Origin: Fidelibacterota bacterium
GTDB taxonomy: Bacteria; Fidelibacterota; Marinisomatia; Marinisomatales; Marinisomataceae
Assembly: GCA_017856055.1 (NCBI GenBank)
Contig: JAFMFP010000004.1
Span: 1-44,868 of the forward strand
DNA: 44,868 nt
Reading direction: 5' to 3'
Both the position numbers and the translations under genes were made by a program. Below, one piece after another: positions 29,787-39,912 of the stretch (positions are counted from its first letter, which is position 1; every line of letters begins with the position of its first letter). A model generated the notes under the pieces. It made no database searches. It saw nothing but the letters and a program-made list of their open reading frames with translations, and was not told the origin of the DNA.

Positions 29787-30380
29787 ATGAGCAAATTTTT
29801 ACTTCCGACACTACCTTACAACGAAAATAGTTTATCCCCAGTTATTTCTTCTGCAACTGTTGATCTTCACTATGGCAAACATCATCAAGCATATTACACA
29901 ATGCTAAACAATTTAATTGAAAACTCAGAATACGAAAGTATGAGCTTAGATGAGATAGTTATAAAAAGTTTTAATGATAAACAGCAAAAAATTTTTAATA
30001 ATGCTGGTCAAGCTTGGAACCATAATTTATACTGGAATCAAATGTCTCCAAATGGGAAAACGATGATTCAATCAAAACTAGCCTCTAAAATTGAAGAATC
30101 TTTCGAAACTTTTGACAACTTTGTTCAACAATTTACTACTGCCTCATTAGGAGTTTTTGGAAGTGGTTGGACATGGTTAGTTGAAAAAGATAATACGCTT
30201 GCAATTATGGGTCTTCCTAATGCTGAAAACCCACTAACATATAATCAGCATGCATTGATGGGAATAGATGTATGGGAACATGCTTACTATCTAGACTATA
30301 AGAATCTTCGAGGTGATTACGTTAAAGCTATTTTAGAAAATTTAATTAACTGGGATTTTGTAGAAAATCGTCTTTCTTAG
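29787..30380 (+). CDS. sodB: Superoxide dismutase, Fe (or Fe/Mn) type
   Basis: HYGKHHQAYY, NAGQAWNHNLYW, DVWEHAYYLDYKN. Confidence 0.96.
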   Translation: MSKFLLPTLPYNENSLSPVISSATVDLHYGKHHQAYYTMLNNLIENSEYESMSLDEIVIKSFNDKQQKIFNNAGQAWNHNLYWNQMSPNGKTMIQSKLASKIEESFETFDNFVQQFTTASLGVFGSGWTWLVEKDNTLAIMGLPNAENPLTYNQHALMGIDVWEHAYYLDYKNLRGDYVKAILENLINWDFVENRLS

Positions 30381-37794: not shown

Positions 37795-38358
37795 TTATAT
37801 TTTTTTTAAACTTGTTTCTGAAATCTCTGTTGAGAGTTTATAGGCAACATATAGCGAAATAGAAAAGCACAAATCTCCAATGATACTGTTACCATAAAAA
37901 GGAATTGCTAGAGTATAGCAATGCAACAAGCCCTGGAAATTCAAGGCATACATTCCACTCGAAACCCAAACCCCAAAATTACTTACTAGGAAAAAAATTG
38001 TTGAACCTGAAAGACTTAATCCAACAACTTTTGGGAAATTGACAGTTTGAAATAGTTTAGCTTTAGTTAAAAAAGCAAAAAGGATAATAGGAGAATAAAT
38101 CCATATAAATCCAGGAGTAAGAATCTGAAAATCTGTGAAATAACCAGCATAAATATAATTATTGACAATTAAGTCACTTAAAAACATTGCTATAACTGGA
38201 ACTAATAAAAACGAAATTCCTTTTAATAATTGAGATGAGAATACCATTAATCCAATTAATGGGGTAACATTTGGAGGATGTGGTACGATTCTTCCAAGAA
38301 CTAAAATCAAAAGAACAACTACAAAGATGAGATAATTTCTATTTGTTTTTAAGATCAT
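37795..38358 (-). CDS. DUF6580-like polytopic membrane protein
   Basis: ILVLGRIVPHPPNVTPLIGLMVFSSQL, MFLSDLIVN, SNFGVWVSSGMY, GNSIIGDLCFS; start overlaps the upstream Ni-SOD gene. Confidence 0.65.
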   Translation of the reverse strand: MILKTNRNYLIFVVVLLILVLGRIVPHPPNVTPLIGLMVFSSQLLKGISFLLVPVIAMFLSDLIVNNYIYAGYFTDFQILTPGFIWIYSPIILFAFLTKAKLFQTVNFPKVVGLSLSGSTIFFLVSNFGVWVSSGMYALNFQGLLHCYTLAIPFYGNSIIGDLCFSISLYVAYKLSTEISETSLKKI

Positions 38359-38800
38359 TTAAATGTGATTTTCCATGTTCATCAAAGTATAAATTAACAA
38401 AACTATTTAAGTTCGTTAATAAATTATTTGCATGACTCGTATCAATTGTTTGTTTGCATTTCATGGCATCAAGTAAAATTACATGCAATAGTTGCAGCTT
38501 TTGAAGATACAAACTATCTTTATCATTGATTTTAATTCTTTGAGTCAAAAAATATTCACTGATAATATTTTGAATTTCCTGAGCATGTTCTTCTTTGCTC
38601 ATTGTCCATCTTACTATTTGAAAACTTTGATTCTCATTCCCTTGATTATCTTTTATGAAATTCATTGTTTTGGTAATAGTCAAGACATGTTCTTCAATCA
38701 TCCTAATTCTCATGGCATCGTCATAAATACCACAGGGTAACTGGCAATGGGCCATGACTGTCGAAAATAAAAAAAGGAAGTATATTGCTATTTTTTGCAT
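38339..38800 (-). CDS. sodN: Nickel-type superoxide dismutase with N-terminal signal peptide
   Basis: MQKIAIYFLFLFSTVMA|HCQLPCGIYDD: Ni-hook motif H-C-x-x-P-C-G-x-Y-D immediately after a VMA signal-peptidase site, followed by a helical body. Confidence 0.88.
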   Translation of the reverse strand: MQKIAIYFLFLFSTVMAHCQLPCGIYDDAMRIRMIEEHVLTITKTMNFIKDNQGNENQSFQIVRWTMSKEEHAQEIQNIISEYFLTQRIKINDKDSLYLQKLQLLHVILLDAMKCKQTIDTSHANNLLTNLNSFVNLYFDEHGKSHLNDLKNK

Positions 38801-38808
38801 TCTAAAAA

Positions 38809-39912
38809 CTAATTAAAGTATTTTTTATAAACAAAATCAAAATCTTGATGAATTTTCTTCTCAAGTAAATTAAAATATTCTAAGTCGAAATTTTTATGTT
38901 CAGATGAATAATTAGATGGATCATATTCTGATAGCAACTCTTTAAAATGTTTCGATTGTTGTAAATCTAAAAAAGCTGAAACATTATTCATAACCCATTG
39001 AAAATTCTGCATTAAATCAGAGTATTTTATAACCATAAAGCTATCAGGTTTTAGCTCTTTTATTAATTTTTCAGTCTCTTTATACCATATTTGTATTTCT
39101 TTATATGCAGATTCACGATATAGAATTCTTTCATTAGTATTTAGTCTATTACCAAACTTAATTTTTTCTTGCATAGAGAAATATGACACTAAAACTTCTT
39201 TTGGATCTCTTATAAGAAATATCATCTTAATATTTTGAAAAGTAGACTGAATTGTTTGTCCTTTAAATATAAATGGGTTTGCTTTCGACAAAATTTGAGA
39301 CTTGTTACTTAAGTAAAGTTGTTTTTTCCAAAATTGCTTCAAAAAATCGACAGAATCTCGATGGCGATTCATATTGGATGAATTGTTAATTAAAAATTTT
39401 GATGAAAGATTGGAAAACTTTTTGTCAGTTTTGTACCAAGGAATGAAATGATTTGAAATCCATTGAGAGTCTAATCGATGAAGAAACAGAAGCATTTCAT
39501 CCTCTTCAATCTTATTAATTTTAACTGAATGCCCACCCTTTCTTCCTTCAACGCGAGTCAATTGAAATTTTACTAGCAAACAATAAACTGGATTCAAAAT
39601 TTTTCTCAAAATAATTGAAGGGAAAATATAATCCCAAGTAGTATTACTTTGAAATTGATCTAGATTTGACAAAACCTTGTGGAAAAAAGTTGTACCGCTT
39701 CGATTGACTCCCATAATTAACACAGGATTATTTATTTTTATTTCTCGAAGCGAGGGAATAAATATCTTATCCAAAAAAAGAAATAGAGAATTGATTAAAT
39801 AATAAAATGGATAAATGGTTAAAAAAAGAATAGCAAAAACAATTTTTCCACTCCTGAGGAGGACAATTATTGAAATTACAAAAAGACCCAACGTGTTATT
39901 TGGGATTTTCAT
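38809..39912 (-). CDS. Sulfotransferase-family protein
   Basis: PAPS 5'-phosphosulfate loop-like NPVLIMGVNRSGTTFFHKVL; IKMIFLIRDPKEVLVSYFS 3'-phosphate region. Confidence 0.85.
   Translation of the reverse strand: MKIPNNTLGLFVISIIVLLRSGKIVFAILFLTIYPFYYLINSLFLFLDKIFIPSLREIKINNPVLIMGVNRSGTTFFHKVLSNLDQFQSNTTWDYIFPSIILRKILNPVYCLLVKFQLTRVEGRKGGHSVKINKIEEDEMLLFLHRLDSQWISNHFIPWYKTDKKFSNLSSKFLINNSSNMNRHRDSVDFLKQFWKKQLYLSNKSQILSKANPFIFKGQTIQSTFQNIKMIFLIRDPKEVLVSYFSMQEKIKFGNRLNTNERILYRESAYKEIQIWYKETEKLIKELKPDSFMVIKYSDLMQNFQWVMNNVSAFLDLQQSKHFKELLSEYDPSNYSSEHKNFDLEYFNLLEKKIHQDFDFVYKKYFN

Follow-up and report, generated by a model that had tools for sequence, protein, structure and literature searches.

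Nickel superoxide dismutases (NiSODs) are usually described as cytosolic enzymes that depend on a dedicated protease, and the free alpha-amino group of His1 is required for nickel ligation. The diversity of sodN was reportedly mapped early on by Dupont and others. Compared with Streptomyces SodN (PF09055/TIGR02753), which is accompanied by SodX (TIGR02754), the protein described here is alike in its HCxxPCGxY hook, its helical bundle and its need for a free N-terminal His. It differs in having a hydrophobic signal peptide in place of a short soluble propeptide, in the absence of SodX and in belonging to a separate clade. Hook position 3 is Q or E here, as opposed to the D of canonical NiSOD, and YDD stands where the canonical sequence has YDP.

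In cyanobacteria NiSOD is described as cytoplasmic, and its use may be closed to strains that lack sodX (Boden et al. 2021; PMC8346466). In a 2025 search for exported metalloproteins, the probe was the signal peptide of a planctomycete NiSOD, which stops directly before His, and many NiSODs were among the proteins retrieved (PMC12537917). The Roseiconus lacunae NiSOD in question (WP_230780104.1) has a signal peptide ending in ...SIASA followed by His and, to judge by its leader, is of the same design as the protein described here. In the accessible portions of that paper it serves only as the source of the search sequence, and maturation, the absence of SodX and distribution are not discussed. 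With this planctomycete case already in print (PMC12537917), the placing of a leader before His is neither new nor unique. The literature on SodX, the propeptide and the periplasm yielded no exported NiSOD beyond that paper, and no account of exported NiSOD as a separate lineage without SodX.

Signal peptidase cleavage likewise exposes His1 as a metal ligand in LPMO, CopC and DUF4198 proteins, but their folds are unrelated and their copper or nickel sites are histidine-based, not a Ni-Cys hook. Another SodX-free way of starting the mature chain at the hook is offered by the ubiquitin-NiSOD fusions of eukaryotic algae (PMC6332867), in which removal of ubiquitin would free His1; unlike the route considered here, this eukaryotic one involves no signal-peptide export.

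The sodN gene, its leader and its modelled fold

The window (the whole stretch of DNA analysed, 44,868 nt) corresponds to contig 17 in the genome of a marine bacterium from the phylum SAR406/Marinimicrobia, an assembly of 0.84 Mb that is 95% complete. The following features bear on the argument.

38342..38800, minus strand: sodN, predicted signal-peptide-type nickel superoxide dismutase precursor, 153 aa (Pfam, NCBIfam, model)
38339-38341, minus strand: sodN stop codon
38750..38800, minus strand: predicted Sec signal peptide MQKIAIYFLFLFSTVMA, 17 aa, with predicted signal peptidase I site VMA↓H (sequence; hydropathy and junction conservation)
38723..38749, minus strand: nickel hook HCQLPCGIY, mature residues 1-9 (H1, C2, P5, C6, G7 and Y9 invariant, n=37)
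38342..38722, minus strand: mature SodN helical body (AlphaFold2, five helices, NiSOD fold matches)
37795..38358, minus strand: DUF6580 membrane protein (PF20221), overlapping the sodN 3' end by 20 bases; neighbour only
38809..39912, minus strand: sulfotransferase-family protein just upstream of sodN (PF13469, synteny in genus); neighbour only
29787..30380, plus strand: Fe/Mn superoxide dismutase without signal peptide, presumed cytosolic SOD (PF02777 and PF00081)

Translation of the minus-strand ORF at 38339-38800 gives a 153-residue product with the N-terminus MQKIAIYFLFLFSTVMAHCQLPCGIYDDAMR, in which the leader MQKIAIYFLFLFSTVMA directly abuts HCQLPCGIYDD. The ATG is the sole possible start, a stop lying five codons upstream with no GTG or TTG between. 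A semi-tryptic peptide of the product is HCQLPCGIYDDAMR. Pfam Sod_Ni (PF09055) matches residues 14-140 at 108.6 bits (cut-off 25, E=4e-31), while the score against the NCBIfam sodN equivalog TIGR02753, 61.5 bits, falls under its cut-off of 90 and therefore marks the protein as a divergent NiSOD. Six hook positions (H1, C2, P5, C6, G7 and Y9) do not vary among 37 diverse homologues of the signal-peptide type. Built on these 37 sequences, an AlphaFold2 model of the mature chain reaches a mean pLDDT of 94. The nine best PDB fold matches of the model are Streptomyces NiSOD (probability 1.00, TM 0.58-0.74, E above 0.001), and a PDB sequence search returned NiSOD as the only plausible relatives, weakly (best E about 0.004). 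The earlier note had named the lack of a NiSOD fold in a structure model as grounds for rejecting its reading; the model has this fold. By family and modelled fold, the ORF is accordingly annotated here as a predicted nickel superoxide dismutase. Hook residues 1-3 are modelled at pLDDT below 50, so that the model gives no support on Ni geometry; comparison with the second-shell residues of the Streptomyces enzyme meets an ambiguous sequence alignment and the same low hook pLDDT.

The divergence of the body, seen in the TIGR02753 score and in the weak PDB sequence match, would also suit an exported metal binder of NiSOD-like fold that is not a SOD, such as a nickel carrier or another N-terminal-His metalloprotein. 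Exported N-terminal-His nickel binders without SOD function are known (DUF4198; PMC12537917). Yet every hook residue that NiSOD uses is invariant, including Tyr9, and a mutual exclusion with exported CuZn-SOD (see below) suggests the same job; we consider a non-SOD function unlikely.

The leader has the features of a Sec/signal peptidase I substrate: an n-region made positive by a lysine, a highly hydrophobic core (Kyte-Doolittle mean of 2.84 over its best 8-residue stretch) and a (-3,-1) site, VMA, immediately ahead of the hook His. No lipobox was found in it. Several sites in the leader are compatible with the (-3,-1) rule; VMA↓H, predicted from that rule and from conservation, is the one located where the hydrophobic core ends. 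When 123 distinct hydrophobic leaders from relatives are compared, A, G or S occupies position -1 in 98% and A, L, V or I occupies position -3 in 95%, position -2 being variable and often bulky; 111 of 121 n-regions carry a net positive charge. Such a logo describes a predicted signal peptidase I site that coincides exactly with the start required of the mature chain. In the same genome only about 2 of 157 signal-peptide-like proteins (about 1%) would begin their mature chain with His, which makes chance a poor explanation even for one gene, and virtually every homologue repeats the A/G/S↓H junction.

The earlier note had placed the hook directly after a signal peptide; the leader indeed ends right before HCQLPCGIY, and the junction is kept in homologues. 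Its argument from V at -3 and A at -1 stands in part: the VMA↓H site is there but is not diagnostic alone, as AxA or VxA likewise closes the propeptides of canonical SodN ahead of His. It is the hydrophobic core, together with the lack of SodX, rather than these two residues, that sets the exported type apart from canonical SodN. A short hydrophobic N-terminus could also act as an uncleaved membrane anchor or belong to a lipoprotein. Such a fate is extremely unlikely given that there is no lipobox, that the His1 amine would stay blocked if the leader were not removed, and that A, G or S at -1 in 98% of distinct leaders would then be unneeded.

Within the same set of 157 signal-peptide-like ORFs, Gln is the commonest first residue past the predicted cleavage (43/157), a strong lineage preference. 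A 202-aa product encoded on contig 43 of this genome (L271:543-1151) is also predicted to be exported with His right after the signal peptide, MFSKKLFLSFLFCSYLFS↓HPVIFKGGKVFW. Pfam gave no match for it, and it is a candidate N-terminal-His metal protein.

Two leader types and the distribution of SodX

In an unbiased Pfam survey covering 245 genomes of the phylum, Sod_Ni turned up in 84. As read from the 5' ends of the genes, leaders are of two types: hydrophobic in 73 genes (SP type) and non-hydrophobic, with a length of 8-20 residues, in 11 (PRO type), the maximum 8-residue mean hydropathy being below 0.5 in PRO leaders and at least 2.4 in the exported type. In all 73 SP-type homologues a predicted signal-peptidase site directly precedes His1, with A, G or S at -1 in 72. 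Signal peptide and exact junction are conserved in at least these 73 homologues and in about ten further phyla.

Even at E<=10, no part of the 95%-complete genome that carries the window gave a SodX; there the TIGR02754 search returned only the genome's single signal peptidase I, at 23 bits against a cut-off of 63. The lack of a SodX-like protease in the window, to which the earlier note had drawn attention, thus extends across the whole genome. Across the phylum, SodX (TIGR02754, E<=1e-10) is present in nine genomes, all of them PRO-type carriers, and each SodX adjoins the PRO gene. By profile this amounts to 9 of 11 PRO carriers versus 0 of 70 SP-only genomes (Fisher p=2e-10). A tenth SodX, partly masked, is visible by eye in G118, bringing the count to 10, and in G163, the eleventh PRO carrier, the gene is cut off by a contig end. 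Three genomes (G082, G083 and G126) carry both types, with SodX beside the PRO copy.

Similar results were obtained outside the phylum. All 80 similarity-picked loci are of SP type, in a set that is biased and includes own-phylum members. An unbiased Pfam survey of 396 Desulfobacterota found 19 SP and one PRO SodN, the gene of the latter being followed by an adjacent SodX-like gene. Among 20 SP-carrying genomes of other phyla, SodX scores above its curated cut-off in one, from Eisenbacteria, and only beside its PRO copy. One branch (SH-aLRT 100) divides the two types in a 100-sequence tree, implying one leader-type change; the tree was made by a quick method from 141 columns and has long branches, so it is good for this separation but not for internal order. 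A survey of homologues for a hydrophobic signal versus a SodX-type propeptide, as advocated in the earlier note, thus came out in favor of its reading, with a conserved junction in 73 SP genes and SodX co-occurring only with the PRO type. A search of plasmids for SodN gave one distant Ilyobacter sequence only. One SodN from a contig labelled SAR202 (RQOS01000010, L104) has a leader identical to that of Marinimicrobia L106; this contig is probably misbinned.

These data also bear on whether the hydrophobic leader might be a long propeptide of the SodX type that a protease so far unrecognised removes in the cytosol, with the enzyme cytosolic like canonical NiSOD. SodX and signal peptidase do share the S26 peptidase family, and the AxA/VxA endings of canonical propeptides point the same way. 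However, this genome has no SodX, the canonical leaders of the same phylum are short and without a hydrophobic core (8-20 aa; below 0.5 vs at least 2.4), and the window already encodes a presumed cytosolic Fe/Mn-SOD. A cytosolic propeptide is very unlikely on this evidence.

The SodN of the window is one of many, and the added interest lies in the clean split of the family into two types. NiSOD probably comprises two anciently separated lineages, one cytosolic and matured by SodX, the other exported, matured by signal peptidase, loaded in the periplasm and filling the niche of exported CuZn-SOD.

Other superoxide dismutases and the genomic neighbourhood

In the phylum, CuZn-SOD occurs in 0 of 73 SP-type carriers versus 36 of 172 other genomes (p=1.6e-6). 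At the genus level, the 25 genera with SP-type NiSOD and the 19 with CuZn-SOD show zero overlap (p=4e-4); at the family level p=0.06, and the exclusion is partly phylogenetic. All 17 CuZn-SODs with readable starts bear export or lipoprotein signals. In Desulfobacterota the corresponding figures, 0 of 19 SP carriers versus 37 of 377, are not significant alone (p=0.24). Because SP carriers in the phylum never have CuZn-SOD, the two enzymes would seem to share a periplasmic role, and, on the simplest interpretation, SP-type NiSOD performs in the periplasm the task that falls elsewhere to exported CuZn-SOD. Fe/Mn-SOD is unrelated to the SP type, being found in 28 of 73 SP carriers and in 57 of 161 genomes without NiSOD; replacement of Fe-SOD by SP-type NiSOD is not seen in these counts. 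In many SP carriers of families f7 and f9, SP-type NiSOD stands alone, with no Fe/Mn-SOD and no CuZn-SOD beside it.

CuZn-SOD is absent from the genome that carries the window, which has two SODs predicted for two compartments. Motif scans of this genome gave no nickel importer of the NiCoT/NicO or CbiM kind and no NiFe-hydrogenase signature. The outcome is a weak negative, yet it fits nickel use outside the cytosol.

The order sulfotransferase-sodN-DUF6580 is maintained in the genus, and relatives without sodN hold the sulfotransferase and DUF6580 genes with nothing between. Since both neighbours are kept without sodN, they are not functional partners of it; a role for DUF6580 in nickel supply, in particular, was ruled out by its retention in place in these genus members. 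The gene itself (window 38339-38800; compare loci L180, L181 and L182) shows a clean one-gene presence/absence within one genus, which suggests a single-gene indel through recent gain or loss.

Proposed maturation route and its implications

We propose, with a probability of roughly four in five, that this sodN encodes an exported NiSOD in which signal peptidase I cuts at VMA↓H to expose His1, nickel is loaded in the periplasm and superoxide is removed there. The precursor would cross the inner membrane by Sec. Signal peptidase I would then cleave VMA↓H, releasing the enzyme and giving His1 a free alpha-amino group, so that a housekeeping signal peptidase would substitute for the dedicated protease SodX. 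Nickel would be bound in the periplasm by the amine and imidazole of His1, the amide and thiolate of Cys2 and the thiolate of Cys6, and the mature enzyme would remove periplasmic superoxide. The data themselves establish the gene, its modelled fold, the leader with its conserved junction, the lack of SodX and the family-wide division of leader types; the cleavage site, nickel loading, SOD activity and compartment are inferred, the first three by analogy with established NiSOD chemistry. Points against an exported NiSOD, besides the divergent body, are that two reduced hook cysteines could form a disulphide in the oxidising periplasm and that the motif scans recognised no nickel importer. A further question is how nickel would reach a thiolate site in that compartment. 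The envelope Ni-SOD of the earlier note, with export and maturation in one step, draws support from the conserved junction, the absence of SodX and the split in leader types: that first reading had the sequence right and very probably the mechanism.

The signal peptide suggests a route to the production of active NiSOD without an accessory protease. If an exported, signal-peptidase-matured branch exists, genomes with sodN but without sodX would not be defective where the leader is a signal peptide. A widespread branch of this kind would revise the view of a missing sodX as a possible loss of function (PMC8346466).
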